A stretch of 12,354 nt of DNA from Nitrospinae bacterium RIFCSPLOWO2_12_FULL_45_22 (GTDB lineage Bacteria > 2-12-FULL-45-22). The notes beneath the pieces are model-generated. The model was not told the origin of the DNA. It saw only the letters and a program-made list of their open reading frames with translations, and did no database searches. The DNA lies in assembly GCA_001803565.1 (NCBI GenBank), contig MHDQ01000295.1, forward strand, positions 1 through 12,354, read 5' to 3'. The position numbers and the translations under genes are program-made. This document shows, in pieces, positions 1-7,177 of this stretch (position 1 is its first letter; each line of letters begins with the position of its first letter).

Positions 1-892
1 TACAAGTTCCCAAAAATTTTCTAGCAAAAGTTTGAGACAAATGACTCTTTTCCCTAGAGAGCCAGAAGAACCGCAGTGTTTGGTCCTTTCCCGGAAGCAC
101 ACTCCTGCGAGGTGGAGAAAGATAGTATCCAAGATTGCCCAGGGTAATGATTATTTTAGATCCGAAACTACTGACTGGAATATAACTTATAAATTTGGGC
201 CCTTTAAGGCCTCTCTTGCCCGAATACCAGAGGATGAAGATCGGTTTCCAGTCGCTCTTTGGACTAAAAATATTTTTATGGAAGGTATTCAGTTTCTCCA
301 GCTCAACAGCAGTGTAATGCGCTGGGCCTGCAGGCCGGATTTACCAGTAGTTTTTCAGTCAGACGGTTCCAATCTTCCAAAGGTAATTCAATACTTGAAG
401 AAAGAACAACCTGATTCCTTTGCCCGCTGGATACAACACATACAGACTGCCTTACCAGAAATCGAAGAAGTACAAATAAAAGAAAGGCCTGAAGACCGTT
501 TCTTATATCTTAATATTAGATACAACAATGGTTTAAAGCTGCCTTCCTGGGTTATCTCTGATGGTACTCTTCGCCTTCTTGCTCAAACGATTATTGCTTA
601 TCTACCGGAAAAGAATCGGATATACATGATTGAAGAGCCTGAGAATGGATTGCATCCTCTTGCTATCGAAAGTATATATCAATCCCTTTCATCAGTCTAT
701 GAAAACCAAATTTTTTTGGCAACTCATTCACCAGCAATATTGCGCCTGGCACAGCCGAAAGATATTCTATGTTTTTCAAAGACCACTTCTGGAGCGGTAG
801 ATATAATAGGGGGAGAAGAACATCCAAAGCTTAAGGACTGGAGAAGAGAGGTTGACCTTGCTACACTCCATGCAGCCGGGGTATTGCAATGA
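1..892 (+). CDS. ABC/SMC-like AAA ATPase, 3' part (5' end outside window), putative defence ATPase
   Basis: The reading frame is open to the left edge (first full codon at 2), so the gene is cut by the window. The TTG at 32 and ATG at 41 are probably internal. Counting from the TTG, the C-terminal ATPase lobe is clear: a signature-like SDGTLR at residues 177-181 where LSGGQ sits in ABC proteins, a Walker B IYMIEEPENGLHP at 197-209, and a switch-histidine segment ATHSP at 230-234. The Walker A motif must lie upstream of the window. This is the AAA_21/OLD-like ATPase type that often pairs with a nuclease or effector in anti-phage systems. The stop overlaps the next start (ATGA), so the two are translationally coupled. 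The closest system I can recall is MAD3 of the methylation-associated defence system, but the other MADS genes are not in view. The ATPase class is secure; the system assignment is tentative. Confidence 0.85.
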   Translation, partial: TSSQKFSSKSLRQMTLFPREPEEPQCLVLSRKHTPARWRKIVSKIAQGNDYFRSETTDWNITYKFGPFKASLARIPEDEDRFPVALWTKNIFMEGIQFLQLNSSVMRWACRPDLPVVFQSDGSNLPKVIQYLKKEQPDSFARWIQHIQTALPEIEEVQIKERPEDRFLYLNIRYNNGLKLPSWVISDGTLRLLAQTIIAYLPEKNRIYMIEEPENGLHPLAIESIYQSLSSVYENQIFLATHSPAILRLAQPKDILCFSKTTSGAVDIIGGEEHPKLKDWRREVDLATLHAAGVLQ

Positions 893-1500
893 AAGATCTG
901 ATCGTTTTGGTGCCCGATAAGAATGTACGGTTTGGAATTGATAGCCTACTTTCACGCTATGAATCGTTGAATATCAAGGACATTTTTTATGATATATTTG
1001 TCCATCCTTTACATGACGCTGGAGTTTATCATAATGCGGCTAATTTTTTAAGAGCATTTTCGAATCATTATTCGTATGCCCTTGTTTTCCTTGACCGAGA
1101 AGGGAGTGGGCAGGAACAAACTCTACCTAACAATATAGCCAATACAGTAAAAAAGGATGTTGAATCTAATGGCTGGCCAGATAGAGTGGAGGTTATCGTT
1201 TTTGATCCAGAACTTGAGATCTGGGTTTGGACGGAATCTCCATATACGGCAGCAGCACTTGGATGGGATAATTATCTGGACTTAAAGAAGTGGCTTAATG
1301 AGCAAGGATTCTGGGAACAAAATTCTTCTAAACCAAAACGACCTAAGGAAGCAGTAGAGAGCTCCTTGAAACTAAAAAGAATTCCCCGTTCATCATCTAT
1401 CTATAGGGAAATTGGTCAAAGGGTCAGCTTACATAGATGTCAGGATGAATCATTTAGAAGCTTTAGAAATATTTTGCAAAAATGGTTCCCAAAAAGTTGA
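889..1500 (+). CDS. Small partner protein of the ATPase, MAD4-like
   Basis: This 203-residue soluble protein starts at an ATG that overlaps the ATPase stop by four bases. It has no signal peptide or membrane segment. Conserved-looking patches are VPDKN near residue 9, an IFVHP segment near 36, ALVFLDREGSG near 64-74, DPELEIWVW near 106-114, KPKRPKEA near 148-155 and a C-terminal PRSSSIY followed by SLHRC. From memory these match a family annotated in public genomes as MADS protein MAD4, which sits beside an AAA ATPase. The acidic patches (LDREG, DPELE) also recall the TOPRIM/DUF4276 proteins that pair with OLD-like ATPases, so a nuclease-like effector role is possible but unproven. The canonical first TOPRIM glutamate motif (EGxTE) is absent; VPDKN occupies that place. 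The gene is AT-rich compared with purD downstream, consistent with acquisition by transfer. Confidence 0.75.
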   Translation: MKDLIVLVPDKNVRFGIDSLLSRYESLNIKDIFYDIFVHPLHDAGVYHNAANFLRAFSNHYSYALVFLDREGSGQEQTLPNNIANTVKKDVESNGWPDRVEVIVFDPELEIWVWTESPYTAAALGWDNYLDLKKWLNEQGFWEQNSSKPKRPKEAVESSLKLKRIPRSSSIYREIGQRVSLHRCQDESFRSFRNILQKWFPKS

Positions 1501-1628: not shown

Positions 1629-2909
1629 ATGAAAGTTATGGTAATTGGCGAGGGGGGGCGAGAGCATGCCCTGGCCTGGAAAATAGCCCGGAGCCCCCTG
1701 GTTACTAGAGTTTATTGTGCCCCGGGTAATGCTGGCACGGCATTATTAGGGCAAAATATACCCTTAAAAGCGACCAACCTGGAAACGCTGAAAGAATTTG
1801 CCCTAAAAGAAGGAATAGACCTGACCGTGGTTGGGCCAGAACTGCCCCTGGCTATGGGGATAGTAGATGAGTTCCAGGAGGTGGGCTTAAAAGTCTTTGG
1901 CCCTAATAGAAAGACCACCGAGCTAGAGAGCAGTAAGGTCTTTGCCAAAGAAGTAATGACTACCGGCAGGATTCCCACTGCCCCCTATAAGGTAATAAAT
2001 ACCTTTAATGAAGCGATCGAATATATAGAGCAGGCCGAGCAGGCCTTAGTAGTCAAGGCCGATGGCCTGGCGGGTGGTAAGGGGGTTATAGTCTGTTCTA
2101 GTAAGGCAGAGGCTATAGCTGCGGCCAAATCATTGATGGTAGACAAGATATTTGCCGATGCCGGGAATAGATTAGTTATAGAAGAGAGGCTCTGGGGAGA
2201 AGAGGTATCTTTCCTCTGCCTTACTGATGGCGAGGATATTCTTCCGTTAGCTACCTCACAAGATCACAAGCAGATCTTTGACGGCGACCAAGGGCCCAAT
2301 ACTGGTGGTATGGGGGCCTATTCGCCGGCCCCGGTGGTCACCCCTGCCATGTTTGACCGGATAGTAGAAGAGATAGCTGAGCCCACTATCAAAACTATGG
2401 CCCAACTAGGCCGGTCATACCAGGGGGTGCTCTATATTGGTCTGATGATTGACCAGGAAGGGCCTAAGGTCCTGGAATATAATGCCCGTTTTGGCGACCC
2501 AGAGACCCAGCCCCTTATGCTACGGCTGGAGTCTGATTTGGTACCGCTCCTCAAGGCAACTATTACCGGCCAATTGAAGGATTGTCAGATCCATTGGAAA
2601 CCGCAGGCCTCGGTTTGCGTGGTGATGGCTGCGCAAGGCTATCCTGGCCCTTATGAAAAAGGTAAAGAGATCACCGGAATTGAGACCGCAGAAGCCCTGG
2701 AAGATATTGAGATATTTCATGCCGGTACTATAACGAAGGAAGGGAAAATATTTACTAATGGTGGCCGGGTACTGGGCGTGACCTCCTTAGGAGGAGATAT
2801 AGCCCAGGCAATAGAAAGGGCCTATGAAGGGGTTAAGAAGATCTTCTGGGACGGCGCCTACTATCGAGCCGATATTGGCCAAAAAGCCCTGAATAGGGCC
2901 TACCGATGA
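1629..2909 (+). CDS. purD: Phosphoribosylamine--glycine ligase (GAR synthetase)
   Basis: PurD joins glycine to 5-phosphoribosylamine using ATP, giving glycinamide ribonucleotide, the second step of de novo purine synthesis in the cytosol. The 426-residue length is normal for a monofunctional enzyme. The N-terminal domain opens with VMVIGEGGREHALAW (3-17) and continues with APGNAGT (31-37). The ATP-grasp fold shows VVKADGLAGGKGV (141-153), SQDHKQIFDGDQGPNTGGMGAYSP (210-233) and the metal-binding EYNARFGDPETQ (283-294). All key motifs are intact. No other pur gene is adjacent, so it stands apart from a purine operon here. Its stop overlaps the start of the downstream sigma-54 activator, which suggests co-expression. 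Identity is secure. Confidence 0.98.
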   Translation: MKVMVIGEGGREHALAWKIARSPLVTRVYCAPGNAGTALLGQNIPLKATNLETLKEFALKEGIDLTVVGPELPLAMGIVDEFQEVGLKVFGPNRKTTELESSKVFAKEVMTTGRIPTAPYKVINTFNEAIEYIEQAEQALVVKADGLAGGKGVIVCSSKAEAIAAAKSLMVDKIFADAGNRLVIEERLWGEEVSFLCLTDGEDILPLATSQDHKQIFDGDQGPNTGGMGAYSPAPVVTPAMFDRIVEEIAEPTIKTMAQLGRSYQGVLYIGLMIDQEGPKVLEYNARFGDPETQPLMLRLESDLVPLLKATITGQLKDCQIHWKPQASVCVVMAAQGYPGPYEKGKEITGIETAEALEDIEIFHAGTITKEGKIFTNGGRVLGVTSLGGDIAQAIERAYEGVKKIFWDGAYYRADIGQKALNRAYR

Positions 2910-4243
2910 CTATGGTTGAAGAACAGGCATTAATAGAATCTATATTGATAGAGAAGGATAACCTGGACCTTATCTTTGATTTTGTCTCTGACGGTATCTT
3001 TACCCATGACCAGCAGATGCTGATCACCAGCTTCAATACCGCGGCAGAAAAGATAACGGGCTTTAACCGGGCAGAAGCCATAGGTAAAAGGTGTCCGGAT
3101 ATATTCGCTGGGCCCCTTTGCGGTACCCATTGCATCCTCCATCAAGCTGCTAAGGCCAGCCGGTGGATAAAGGACCAAGAACTTCAGATAATGGATAAGA
3201 ACGGCCGCCCCCGGACTATTATCCTTAATACCGCCATTCTACATGATAAAGAGAAAAAACCGTGGGGAGTAGTGGCCATTTTTCGCGACATGACCGAGCT
3301 AGTCTCCTTGAAGAGGCAATTAAAGGAGCGGTTTCAATTCCATAAACTGATCGGGAAGAACCACCAGATGCAAGAGGTTTATAATTTGATTGAAGATATC
3401 GCCGATAGCGATGCTACGGTACTAATCCAGGGTGAAAGTGGTACTGGTAAAGAGCTAGTAGCCCAGGCTATTCACTATCAAGGACCGCGGACTAATAAAC
3501 CCTTTGTTAGGGTCAATTGTTCCACCCTGGCAGAAAGCCTATTGGAAAGCGAGTTGTTCGGCCATGTGAGAGGGGCTTTCACTGGGGCTATTCGGGATAA
3601 AATAGGCAGGTTTGAGCTAGCCCAGGGCGGCACTGCATTTCTGGATGAGATCGGCGATATAAGTCCGGCTATCCAGGTGAAGCTATTGCGGGTACTACAG
3701 GAAAAGGAGATCGAACGGGTAGGGGACACTAAGAGTATCAAGGTGGATGTGAGAGTTATAGCGGCTACAAACCATGATCTAAAAAGATTAATGCGAGAGG
3801 GAAAATTTCGGGAAGACCTCTTTTATCGCCTCTACGTCATCCCTATCCACTTGCCACCTTTGCGCGAGCGCAGGGAGGACATACCGCTCCTGGTAGAACA
3901 TTTTATAAGACAATTTAAGGGGCAAACCGGCAAAAAGATCGAAAGTATCTCCGAGGAAGCCCTGAAGCTCCTATTAGATTATTCCTGGCCTGGTAATGTT
4001 CGGGAATTAGAGAATGTTATAGAACATGCCTTTGTCAAGTGCCGTGTCCCCTTGATCCTCCCTGAACATCTCCCCCAGGAAATCCTCGGGGCAAAGATAG
4101 TTTTCGGTGCCCGAAAACGACCCCGCCTCACCGAAGAACAACTCCACCAAGCCCTTCAGGAAACCCGAGGCAATAAGGCCCGGGCTGCCAGGGAATTAGG
4201 TATAGGCCGAACGACCCTGTGGCGCAAGCTAAAAAAAGGGTAA
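2906..4243 (+). CDS. PAS-domain sigma-54-dependent transcriptional activator
   Basis: This is a 445-residue bacterial enhancer-binding protein without a receiver domain, so it is probably controlled by ligand or redox state and not by phosphorylation. A PAS domain spans about residues 18-130 and carries a cysteine cluster C63-x8-C72-x3-C76 that could bind metal, an Fe-S cluster or a redox signal. The AAA+ domain (about 148-390) is complete: Walker A GESGTGKE (176-183), the sigma-54 contact loop GAFTGA (223-228), Walker B GGTAFLDEIG (241-250) and arginines in the FREDLFYRL segment (301-309). The C-terminus (about 408-445) is a Fis-type helix-turn-helix with GNKARAARELGIGRTTLWRK. The start overlaps the purD stop (ATGA); an in-frame ATG at 2912 is an alternative. 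Its target is unknown, and no -24/-12 promoter was found in the non-coding parts of the window. Confidence 0.95.
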   Translation: MTMVEEQALIESILIEKDNLDLIFDFVSDGIFTHDQQMLITSFNTAAEKITGFNRAEAIGKRCPDIFAGPLCGTHCILHQAAKASRWIKDQELQIMDKNGRPRTIILNTAILHDKEKKPWGVVAIFRDMTELVSLKRQLKERFQFHKLIGKNHQMQEVYNLIEDIADSDATVLIQGESGTGKELVAQAIHYQGPRTNKPFVRVNCSTLAESLLESELFGHVRGAFTGAIRDKIGRFELAQGGTAFLDEIGDISPAIQVKLLRVLQEKEIERVGDTKSIKVDVRVIAATNHDLKRLMREGKFREDLFYRLYVIPIHLPPLRERREDIPLLVEHFIRQFKGQTGKKIESISEEALKLLLDYSWPGNVRELENVIEHAFVKCRVPLILPEHLPQEILGAKIVFGARKRPRLTEEQLHQALQETRGNKARAARELGIGRTTLWRKLKKG

Positions 4244-4266
4244 CTGTTTAGCCACGGTAGGCCTTC

Positions 4267-4391
4267 ACCGCAGACGCTGAGACGCAGAGTCTTCTTACGG
4301 ATCGTAAGGAGTAAGGTGTGAGGGGGCATCTCCTTGCGCCTAACGCTCTCACGCCTTACGGGTCTTCTCTGCGCCTCTGCGCCTCTGCGGT
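4267..4391. repeat. Nested palindromic repeat element (MITE/REP-like)
   Basis: The outer arms 4267-4289 and 4367-4391 are inverted copies built on a GCAGAGGC-type unit; both end in the form ACCGCAGA when read inward from the element edges. Inside them, 4311-4322 pairs with 4348-4359 (11 of 12 identical, the odd pair a G-T wobble), and a small perfect hairpin with a 6-bp stem and 3-base loop lies at 4294-4308. The whole would fold into a long hairpin in DNA or RNA. It fills almost all of the gap between the sigma-54 activator and the fusion gene. No ORF of note lies in it. It looks like a non-autonomous dispersed element and could also act as a bidirectional transcription barrier. Copy number cannot be judged from this window. 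Confidence 0.8.
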
Positions 4392-4404
4392 AAAATAATA
4401 CAAT

Positions 4405-6798
4405 ATGGAAGCAGTTAAAAAAGAGACTCTCAGCCAGGAGATTTATAATTTCGCAACCCTCGCTGCGTTGCGGGAAGCAGTCCTTAAGGTTGCTGAGGCA
4501 TCTGATAAAGACCCTTTGATCTATATCTTACCCAATGCCAGGCGAATACCCCTAAAAAGCCCCACTGGTCAAATAGGTATTTTCCCGGCTTCTTTCAACC
4601 CTTTAACCCTAGCCCATGTTGCCGTGATAGAAGAGGCCAGAAAAATCTTTAGCCTGGAAGAGATAATCCTGATCCTGGACATCAAAAACATTGATAAGGA
4701 CATATTTGGCGCTTCTTTAGAAGACCGGTTATTGATGCTCCAACTCTTCATTACTCCCTTCCCCTACTACAGGATAGGATTGGCCAGTCACGGCTTATTC
4801 CTCCATAAGCTCCAGGCCCTAAAGCGTATCTATCCAGAATCGCTCGGGTTCAATTTTATTGTGGGCTACGATACCATAGCAAGGGTCTTAGATAATAAGT
4901 ATTATGCTGATAGAGAGCGGGCCCTAGATGACTTATTCAGCCAGAGCCGGTTTCTGGTTGCTAATCGCTATGATAAAGGGGAGAAAGAGATAGAAGAGTG
5001 GCTTACTCGAAAAGAAAATAAAAGGTTCACCTGTCTACCGTGCCGGCACAGGCAGGGAGACCGGATAATACCCTTTAACATCCCGTCCCGCTATGCCTTT
5101 ATCACCTCTACTTATATTCGAGACTGGATAAAAGAAGGTAAGCCCATAACAGAACTGGCCCAGTGGGTGCCGGAAGAGGTTCTTTCTTTTATCCAGCAGA
5201 CCGGACTGTATCATCTGCCTCTTCTAATAGAGCGGGAGGGTGAAAAAATTACGATAGATAGATACGATTTGCGTATCCGACTCATCCATCACCTCTTTGC
5301 CCTGAATATCCCGGCTAATCAAAACATAGACCTGAAGAAGCTGATAGAAATAGCGACGTCTGATACCCCCCTGGGAGAGCAAATCAGAAAAATGCTGGCC
5401 ATCCCGTCCCACTGCCTCCCTCCCCGCCCTTATGTAGCCGCACCGTCTAACGGTGCCACATTACTAGGTAACTTCAGCTATAATAAAATCTCTTACTCTT
5501 TGCCCCAGGCCCTGGTAGAAGCTCAGCGCTGCTTGCAATGCCCTGAGCCACCCTGCCAGCGGGCCTGCCCGGATAATATCCCGATAAAACAGCTCCTGGA
5601 AAAAATTTCTAAAGGAGAATTTAAAGAACCAATTGATTGCCTCAGACAGAGACATCCTTTAGCTGGCATGACCGAATATCTCTGCCAAACCCAGGAGAAC
5701 TACTGTGAGGCCCATTGCCTCTTAGCCACCCTTCTAGGGCTAAACCACGGAGTAGCTATCCAGGAAGTATTGAAGACCATCCTCACAAAAGTGAGCCGTG
5801 AGCCGTTAGCAGTGAGCAGTACAGAGCCCGCGGGCTCTTCACTCCTTACTGCTTACTCCTCACCCCTCACACCTAAGATTGCCATTGTTGGTTCTGGTCC
5901 TGCGGGCTTAGCGGCTGCATTTGCCCTGGCCCGAATGGGCTATCAGGCGCATATATACGAGAGGAAAGATAAGATAGGCGGCATACCCCGCCATGAAATA
6001 CCACCTTTCCGGTTCCAGCCCCAACAAGTCTTTGAAGGAATAGAGGAAGAACTAGAATCCCAAGGCATAGAGGTATTTACTAATATCGTTATTGAAAAGG
6101 ATAAGGGCCTTAAAGAATTGCTAAGAGAGGGGTACCGGGCCATATTCCTTGCCACGGGTCTGATTAAGCCATTGCGACTAAATATCCCAGGAGAAGGATT
6201 ACCCCAGGTGATAACTTCGGTGGATCTCTTCACCCTCTATCATCAGCAAGGATTGGATTATTTACTAGACCGGTTCTCTGCTAAGCGGGTAATAATTACT
6301 GATAGTGGCAATACTGCTATGGATACCAGCCGGTTTTTGTTGCGATTAGGAGCGGAACCTATTATAATTCATTGGCGGGCGCACCCCCGGGCCTTACTTA
6401 AGGAAACCTGGGCTGCCCAAAGAGAAGGGGTGAAGTTCTTGCACCTCTGCCGGCCTATCCGGTTCATAGGGGATGATGCAGGAAACTTGAAGTATATCTT
6501 GGTCATCCGAACGGAATACGATAGCCAGACCCAGCAGGATAACCCTATCCCAGGTAGTGAATTTATCCTCCGGGCCGATTATGTGGTCCATGCCATAGGC
6601 TCGCTACCAGACCTGGTACTCCCGGGCTTAAACCTCACCCCTGAGGGCCATGTGATAGTGGAGCCGGAAACTATGGCTACTTCCCTCGACGGTGTATTTG
6701 CCGGGGGCGACTTAGTAGAGAAAGGGAATATATCAACCGCTATCAGGGATGGGAAGAGGGCAGCGCACAGCATTGCCAGTATCTTGGCAAAGGAATGA
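4405..6798 (+). CDS. Fusion: NMN/NaMN adenylyltransferase-like domain + Fe-S/FAD GltD-type oxidoreductase
   Basis: This 797-residue protein joins two normally separate proteins. After a roughly 57-residue leader of unknown role, residues 58-275 form a nucleotidyltransferase with GIFPASFNPLTLAH (58-71, matching the NadD/NMNAT GxFxPxTxxH site), VGYDTIARVLDNKYY in mid-domain and the C-terminal STYIR motif (235-239) followed by VPEEVLSFIQQTGLY. Residues about 365-460 are a GltD/dihydropyrimidine-dehydrogenase-type Fe-S domain with CLQCPEPPCQRAC (376-388) and a second cysteine group ending CEAHC. From 491 an FAD domain has IVGSGPAGLAAA, and GVFAGGD (763-769) closes the flavin site. The NAD(P)-binding Rossmann motif reads TDSGNTAMD (632-640), where GGGN is usual. 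Residues 463-489 are a low-complexity linker encoded by a palindromic repeat. The start is the first ATG after an in-frame stop at 4396; no Shine-Dalgarno is visible. The electron partner and exact pyridine nucleotide are unknown. Confidence 0.9.
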   Translation: MEAVKKETLSQEIYNFATLAALREAVLKVAEASDKDPLIYILPNARRIPLKSPTGQIGIFPASFNPLTLAHVAVIEEARKIFSLEEIILILDIKNIDKDIFGASLEDRLLMLQLFITPFPYYRIGLASHGLFLHKLQALKRIYPESLGFNFIVGYDTIARVLDNKYYADRERALDDLFSQSRFLVANRYDKGEKEIEEWLTRKENKRFTCLPCRHRQGDRIIPFNIPSRYAFITSTYIRDWIKEGKPITELAQWVPEEVLSFIQQTGLYHLPLLIEREGEKITIDRYDLRIRLIHHLFALNIPANQNIDLKKLIEIATSDTPLGEQIRKMLAIPSHCLPPRPYVAAPSNGATLLGNFSYNKISYSLPQALVEAQRCLQCPEPPCQRACPDNIPIKQLLEKISKGEFKEPIDCLRQRHPLAGMTEYLCQTQENYCEAHCLLATLLGLNHGVAIQEVLKTILTKVSREPLAVSSTEPAGSSLLTAYSSPLTPKIAIVGSGPAGLAAAFALARMGYQAHIYERKDKIGGIPRHEIPPFRFQPQQVFEGIEEELESQGIEVFTNIVIEKDKGLKELLREGYRAIFLATGLIKPLRLNIPGEGLPQVITSVDLFTLYHQQGLDYLLDRFSAKRVIITDSGNTAMDTSRFLLRLGAEPIIIHWRAHPRALLKETWAAQREGVKFLHLCRPIRFIGDDAGNLKYILVIRTEYDSQTQQDNPIPGSEFILRADYVVHAIGSLPDLVLPGLNLTPEGHVIVEPETMATSLDGVFAGGDLVEKGNISTAIRDGKRAAHSIASILAKE
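5791..5870. repeat. 80-base palindrome of heptamer repeats inside a coding sequence
   Basis: The left arm 5791-5830 and right arm 5831-5870 are inverted copies with no loop; 31 of 40 positions match by my count. The central 16 bases (5823-5838, AGAGCCCGCGGGCTCT) are a perfect palindrome. Each arm consists of about five degenerate 7-base units of the form GTGAGCC or GTAAGCA. The element is read through in frame and supplies residues 463-489 of the fusion protein, between the Fe-S domain and the FAD domain. It resembles a dispersed intergenic repeat that inserted at a domain boundary. Confidence 0.85.
6789..6794 (+). promoter_or_regulatory. Ribosome binding site that sets the start at 6803
   Basis: AAAGGA lies eight bases before the ATG at 6803 and overlaps the end of the upstream gene. 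It favours that ATG over an in-frame start at 6749 inside the upstream coding sequence. Confidence 0.65.
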
Positions 6799-6802
6799 TG
6801 AT

Positions 6803-7177
6803 ATGAAAGAGGCATTAAGATACTTAAAGAATGCCAGGGAGAGGTTAAAGTCTGCACCAGTAGAGGATAATACCTATACCGATGTTAAGCCGGTGCGGGA
6901 GGCATGTGGCACGGCTTATCTTGCTGTGCTTAAGGCCATTGACGACTATTTACTGGAAAAGGGTGTTGAGAGGAAGAAATTGCCTAAATCCTTTGAGGCT
7001 TACATGGAAATGTTCCGAAAATACGCCCTGATACATGATGGTAAACAGATACGAGAATTTGATAAACTTTATGACTTATTGCATATTGCTGGTTACTATC
7101 AGGGGCTCTTAAAGGATGTGGCGGTTGTTAAGGATGCTATAAAAGCTGCCGAGGACTTCATCAAAAAGCTAAAATAA
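6803..7177 (+). CDS. DUF5618-like small helical protein
   Basis: From the ATG at 6803 this encodes 124 residues, starting MKEALRYLKNARERL. The frame is open further upstream, but those extra 18 residues overlap the upstream gene and do not resemble the family. The sequence is predicted to be almost wholly alpha-helical and soluble. The N-terminal helix is followed by a YTDVKPVREACGTAYLAVLKAIDDYLLEKG segment in shorter conserved pieces, then YALIHDG, LYDLLHIAGYY and a VVKDAIKAAEDFI C-terminal helix. From memory this matches DUF5618, a HEPN-like helical-bundle family with no known activity. The RNase motif of active HEPN toxins (R-x4-6-H) is not present. It lies five bases after the fusion gene stop and nine before larE, so it is probably co-transcribed. 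Function unknown. Confidence 0.8.
   Translation: MKEALRYLKNARERLKSAPVEDNTYTDVKPVREACGTAYLAVLKAIDDYLLEKGVERKKLPKSFEAYMEMFRKYALIHDGKQIREFDKLYDLLHIAGYYQGLLKDVAVVKDAIKAAEDFIKKLK

Follow-up and report, generated by a model that had tools for sequence, protein, structure and literature searches.

A Pof1-like adenylyltransferase domain fused to a GltD-like Fe-S/FAD module with a rewritten NADP site

Why would a bacterium carry a nucleotide adenylyltransferase-like domain and a flavoprotein-like Fe-S/FAD module in a single polypeptide chain? The question is raised by a gene in the window, by which we mean the whole stretch of DNA analyzed, 12,354 bases that make up an entire contig (C295) of a 3.67-Mb draft genome that is 85% complete. 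The original prediction, made from the DNA alone, had described one unbroken frame of 797 codons in which NadD/NMNAT-type motifs precede those of a GltD/NfnB-type Fe-S and FAD module. ORF listing and translation confirmed the frame (4405-6798, plus strand, ATG to TGA) and placed all of the quoted motifs in the 797-residue protein: GIFPASFNPLTLAH at residues 58 to 71, STYIR at residues 235 to 239, CLQCPEPPCQRAC at residues 376 to 388, IVGSGPAG at residues 494 to 501, and GVFAGGD at residues 763 to 769. The gene and its parts are as follows.

4405..6798, plus strand: fusion gene, Pof1-type adenylyltransferase, connector and GltD-like Fe-S/FAD module, 797 amino acids (ORF, Pfam, full-length homologs)
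4567..5217, plus strand: putative Pof1-type NMNAT-like domain, residues 55 to 271 (family HMM, tree, fold search with Z about 20 to NadD/NMNAT)
4606..4617, plus strand: TxxH motif, T68-L-A-H71, corresponding to the T/HxxH catalytic motif of NMNATs (alignment; PMC13191266)
5104..5121, plus strand: SxxxxR-type motif, T234-STYI-R239, with S234 in the other two fusions (alignments; PMC13191266)
5221..5397, plus strand: connector, residues 273 to 331, a beta-hairpin and three helices, found in the fusions only and conserved in all three (alignment, model)
5470..5781, plus strand: Fer4_20 region, residues 356 to 459, with the Cys ligands C376, C379, C384, C388, C427, C434 and C438 (Pfam, alignment)
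5770..5772, plus strand: L456, with F in both other fusions, where ordinary modules have the Glu/Lys ligand to the proximal [4Fe-4S] cluster (alignment; PMC8097209, PMC10482914)
5884..5907, plus strand: FAD fingerprint IVGSGPAG, residues 494 to 501, intact (alignment)
6010..6012, plus strand: R536, aligned with T. maritima NfnB Arg187 (flavin N5 bond) and kept in all three fusions (alignment; PMC6405883)
6301..6405, plus strand: rewritten NADP site, residues 633 to 667 (alignment with ordinary modules)

The predicted order of an NMNAT-like domain, Fer4_20 and Pyr_redox is real, and homologs in other phylum-level groups keep it. Pfam places CTP_transf_like at residues 59 to 239 (1.1e-6, exceeding its cut-off), Fer4_20 at residues 356 to 459 (7e-19) and Pyr_redox_2 at residues 491 to 779 (1e-24). 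The predicted structural model shows an NadD/NMNAT fold for residues 53 to 271 (Z about 20) and an NfnB fold for residues 486 to 797 (Z 27). The connector of the window protein is modeled with a pLDDT of 83 to 91; the Fe-S region has low confidence, and domain contacts are not readable there.

The fusion is not confined to the window. A search of 60 relatives yielded a full-length homolog of 775 amino acids with 45% identity (E 6.7e-205) in CP070758.1 (G059, L025:5974-8298), a record titled "Gemmatimonadota bacterium bin29." A third copy, with 37% identity, was present among the 84 Poribacteria-phylum genomes searched (G389, L164:3978-6248, minus strand), where a 759-codon open frame was read as 757 amino acids. 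All three fusions, which come from three phylum-level groups, share the domain order and the conserved connector and contain no stops. The original prediction had made its case depend on a homolog with the same fusion, and two further genomes carry one at full length; these copies also rule out an assembly chimera or accident. The N-terminal half was absent (E 1e-8) from G001, the sole other genome of the window's phylum examined, which is 68% complete.

How often did the two halves become joined? In the tree, the C-terminal halves of the fusions group together with 100/100 support, apart from the 42 ordinary GltD-type modules, and monophyly of the N-terminal halves was not rejected (p-AU 0.115), as expected from one ancient fusion; on the same grounds, recent or independent fusions were set aside. 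A profile of the C-terminal subfamily gave 778 to 853 bits for the fusions and 322 bits for the next best match, and no member lacking the N-terminal half was found in 81 Poribacteria-phylum genomes or among the four candidates scored per genome in 386 relatives. We had also considered that Poribacteria with a stand-alone Pof1-like gene might encode the C-terminal half as a separate partner, and no free copy of the subfamily was found there. A mobile origin was rejected: viral contigs contained no relative, plasmid and phage records gave no match covering 80% of the protein, and a plasmid match to the N-terminal half was not found either. The three copies are most simply explained by a single old fusion that was then retained or handed on in a small number of lineages, although this account is not firm.

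The N-terminal half had been described as NadD/NMNAT type, and the NMNAT part of this description stands while the NadD part does not. Proteins of the NMNAT fold with T/HxxH and SxxxxR motifs adenylylate mononucleotides. In the fold search the predicted model matched NMNAT/NadD structures with Z 16 to 20, above PPAT (Z 13), and the half retains TxxH (TLAH, residues 68 to 71), SxxxxR and GxD; the hexapeptide TSTYIR (residues 234 to 239) begins with Thr in the window copy and with Ser in the other two fusions. It thus has the fold of NadD and motifs of the HxxH and ISSTxxR types in common with it. However, it scored 64.3 bits against TIGR00482 (NadD) in the genome search and 61.4 bits in the scan, below the cut-off of 112.45, and the tree separates the NadD rows with 100/99. 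Three residues that are invariant in all 14 NadD rows, namely, the first His of HxxH, the His of PPHK and the conserved Trp, are replaced by T68, D97 and N164 in the window protein (the last position is P in the other two fusions), as are other NadD residues. Each fusion host has a separate, ordinary NadD above the cut-off (3/3), including a true NadD of 170 bits in the window's genome. By these comparisons, the N-terminal half is a member of a separate, Pof1-like family and not NadD.

Among characterized proteins, yeast Pof1 comes closest. It is an NMNAT with specificity for NMN that requires its T/HxxH motif to synthesize NAD; its H43 was tested, and the T/HxxH and SxxxxR motifs were described, in the same work (PMC13191266). 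Pof1 (YCL047C) shares T/HxxH, SxxxxR, N-x-D-K and VGxDTxxRxxDxKYY with the N-terminal half, and the two group together apart from NadD, but Pof1 is a stand-alone protein of about 258 amino acids without an Fe-S/FAD half, and the fusions have Thr in place of the first His. Residues common to the fusions, the Poribacteria proteins and Pof1, as opposed to NadD, include N95, D97, K135, T157, R160 and Y166-Y167. We took the sequence used for the comparison to be that of Pof1; it carries the published H43 and R227 (PMC13191266). The family HMM gave 88 bits with this sequence and 81 bits with the NadD of the same genome, so that the profile alone is undecided; in BLAST, the E-values of single family members went as low as 2e-18, against 0.004 at best for NadD controls. 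In the tree, the Pof1 sequence lies within the family on a long branch. By analogy, the N-terminal half probably makes NAD from NMN and ATP, with the preference for NMN drawn from Pof1 only.

A family profile run over 386 genomes found members of at least 145 bits in 11 of them, while the other, NadD-like matches did not exceed 85 bits. Most members are stand-alone, including those in 73 of 84 Poribacteria-phylum genomes and in one Tectomicrobia genome; among the 74 Poribacteria-phylum carriers, the gene is fused only in G389. At 48 of 74 Poribacteria loci (L026-L081, e.g., L063:4987-5775), a set in which some loci are the same genome counted twice, mazG precedes the stand-alone gene on the same strand, and endonuclease V often comes after it. 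This setting looks like a nucleotide-housekeeping neighborhood. In one genome of the Poribacteria phylum (G390, L167:3360-6653), nfnA, nfnB and the stand-alone Pof1-type gene are consecutive on one strand, and the nfnB is ordinary (GAGN, YRR). This gene row connects a Pof1-type gene with Nfn independently of the fusions, albeit in a single case. The Tectomicrobia genome G049 (L023, L079; 88% complete) encodes a stand-alone Pof1-type protein and no NadD above the cut-off, and hence its principal enzyme may be the Pof1-type one.

The assignment of the C-terminal half to the GltD/NfnB type was well founded. GltD-like modules carry FAD and two clusters. As in the modules of glutamate synthase beta, NfnB, StnC, DPD and AegA, Fer4_20 is followed by FAD and second Rossmann domains. 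In both fold and sequence, NfnB is the nearest of these modules: residues 486 to 797 of the model match NfnB with a Z of 27.2 and an rmsd of 2.9 over 300 residues (sequence match to T. maritima NfnB, E 2e-67). We built an alignment of the three fusions and 42 ordinary GltD-type modules. All three keep the seven Cys (C376, C379, C384, C388, C427, C434 and C438), the FAD GxGxxG (GSGPAG, residues 496 to 501), E519, the GGD motif and R536, the Arg at the flavin N5; in T. maritima NfnB, the bond to N5 is made by Arg187 (PMC6405883).

Against this shared framework, the NADP site and the ligand of the proximal cluster are replaced. The first Gly of the second GxGxxA (G633) and Tyr-Arg-Arg (657 to 659) are both present in 42/42 ordinary modules; the fusions have D/D/E at the former and WRA/WED/WEK at the latter, so that the Tyr and the second Arg are gone from all three and the first Arg from two, R658 being kept in the window protein. 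The Glu of EMPA (E663), likewise invariant in the 42 ordinary modules, is A/A/S in the fusions, and Gly531 and Arg425 of the ordinary modules are lost as well. NfnB binds the extra phosphate of NADP with two conserved Arg residues (PMC6405883), and in our own reading of the alignment these would be the YRR pair. The proximal [4Fe-4S] cluster has a Glu/Lys ligand (PMC8097209, PMC10482914), for which the ordinary modules supply E (35) or K (7); the fusions have L/F/F there. Replacing the corresponding Lys170 of StnC, where NfnB has Glu, with Ala or Cys causes a severe loss of activity (PMC10482914).

Did this half simply decay? At 25 positions, all three fusions have the same residue and at most 2 of the 42 ordinary modules have it; these include P528, E531, F537, W657, P661, R662, K666, E772, N775 and R781. 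Such residues point to a new constraint and not to decay, and the C-terminal half looks re-specialized. Both the alignment and the tree set it apart as a GltD-like subfamily of its own, which in the genomes searched occurs in the fusions alone, and it scored 251 bits against TIGR01316 (NADPH-dependent glutamate synthase small subunit/NfnB), short of the cut-off of 471.75. The NfnA-NfnB fusions of the PRK12778 type (NF009414), of about 750 amino acids, set a precedent for an N-terminal partner on a GltD-type module, but their partner is a PyrK-like NfnA flavoprotein and not an adenylyltransferase; our protein scored 245 bits with this model, for which the cut-off is 1103. HdrA-type flavoproteins also appeared in the fold search (Z 20). 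These proteins bind FAD in a comparable fold and exchange electrons via Fe-S clusters and not, as far as is known, via NAD(P)H, and hence provide a precedent for a module of this fold that works without NADPH.

We tentatively propose that the fusion is an NMN adenylyltransferase with an NADPH-blind flavin/Fe-S module that gates NAD synthesis or couples it to the cellular redox state. The Pof1-type N-terminal half would convert NMN and ATP to NAD, supplementing the route from NaMN through the separate NadD. The C-terminal half would be a descendant of the GltD/NfnB electron-transfer module that, as judged by its residues, has kept FAD and at least the all-Cys [4Fe-4S] cluster, with new conserved residues in place of the NADPH site and of the non-Cys ligand of the flavin-proximal cluster. 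With both replaced, the usual uptake of hydride from NADPH is not expected. Ferredoxin, or a different ligand bound at the rewritten site, might load the half instead, and the half would act on the attached adenylyltransferase as a redox-responsive partner. Both activities and their coupling we infer; the architecture, its recurrence and the motifs kept and lost can be read from the three proteins directly. That the rebuilt site serves the flavoprotein half to act on the substrate or product of the attached NMNAT, or that the flavin or cluster gates the NMNAT by its redox state, is possible, if somewhat unlikely.

Other explanations draw on the same residues. The original prediction supposed that an ordinary GltD-type module oxidizes or reduces NAD(P) and receives NAD or NaAD by channeling from a NadD-type domain. 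Although the NfnB fold match (Z 27), the FAD fingerprint and the Cys residues would suit such a module, both the redox reaction with NAD(P) and the channeling are weakened by the changed NADP site, where the binding Gly and the second Arg are gone in 3/3, and by the loss of the proximal-cluster ligand; moreover, the N-terminal half is not NadD-like in its signature residues, and NaAD needs NadE, which is absent from the protein. We disfavor simple NAD(P)H oxidation or channeling and consider this model very unlikely. Could another pyridine nucleotide bind at the rewritten site, such as NAD(H) or a mononucleotide (NMN or NaMN, oxidized or reduced), with a single protein then carrying out both the redox reaction of the nucleotide and its adenylylation? 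The site looks rebuilt rather than decayed, with the new conserved basic residues R662 and K666, as well as W657 and P661, beside the lost YRR, and two of the three fusions have E658. In related reductases, an acidic residue at such a place favors NAD over NADP. The Asp or Glu at the first Gly of GxGxxA, however, should repel the pyrophosphate, and R658 of the window copy does not fit a switch to NAD, and we regard this possibility as doubtful.

A different role for one of the halves has also to be weighed. The N-terminal half might not primarily make NAD, the family working in nucleotide housekeeping and the C-terminal half tethering or regulating it. The mazG and endonuclease V setting in Poribacteria is consistent with this idea, as are the NadD possessed by every fusion host and the low NMNAT activity and proposed ATPase role of yeast Pof1 (PMC13191266). 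However, the motifs are NMNAT motifs, the fold matches NMNATs better than PPAT (Z about 20 versus 13), and the neighborhood is lineage specific and absent around the fusions, which leaves housekeeping an unlikely role. Still less probable is that the C-terminal half serves as an electron conduit to a separate protein, with the adenylyltransferase carried along or structural. GltD-like modules do normally pass electrons to partner proteins (PMC8097209), but no neighbor is conserved, the NADPH entry and the proximal-cluster ligand are lost, and the adenylyltransferase motifs are kept as they are in stand-alone copies.

If the two halves of an NMN adenylyltransferase with an NADPH-blind module are indeed active and communicate, redox state would determine within one chain how large the NAD pool is, and redox control of this pool is usually inferred from whole-cell data. 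NadR, an NMNAT fused to a kinase, and NadM-Nudix, another NMNAT fusion, resemble our protein in joining an NMNAT to a further domain of NAD metabolism. We know of no fusion of these types with a redox flavoprotein, nor of any NAD-synthesizing enzyme with a redox flavoprotein of its own. The original prediction named no characterized protein with this domain order, and we found no description of one in the open-access literature, which misses most subscription journals. What is new is the domain combination together with a private, apparently re-specialized GltD-like subfamily. A GltD-type module working without NADPH would, if true, extend a well-studied modular family. The work also places relatives of yeast Pof1 in bacteria, in a family that is nearly universal in Poribacteria.

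The surroundings of the three fusion genes have no neighbors in common that would indicate a conserved operon, and no gene in the neighborhoods names an electron donor. The contig starts (window 32-1500) with two genes whose matches are MADS3 and, weakly, MADS4, both of the methylation-associated defense system; of the MADS3 model, the frame covers just the final two thirds. A PAS/sigma-54 activator (PrdR-like) is encoded directly upstream of the fusion gene (window 2906-4243), and no sigma-54 promoter was found before the fusion gene. The intervening gap (window 4244-4404) contains stretches like accgcagacgctgagacgcagag ... ctctgcgcctctgcgcctctgcggt, which resemble a dispersed repeat; the repeat finder detected no inverted repeat in it. 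Downstream lies a DUF5618 gene (window 6803-7177) with a possible start four bases past the stop codon of the fusion, and hence the two genes may be cotranslated.
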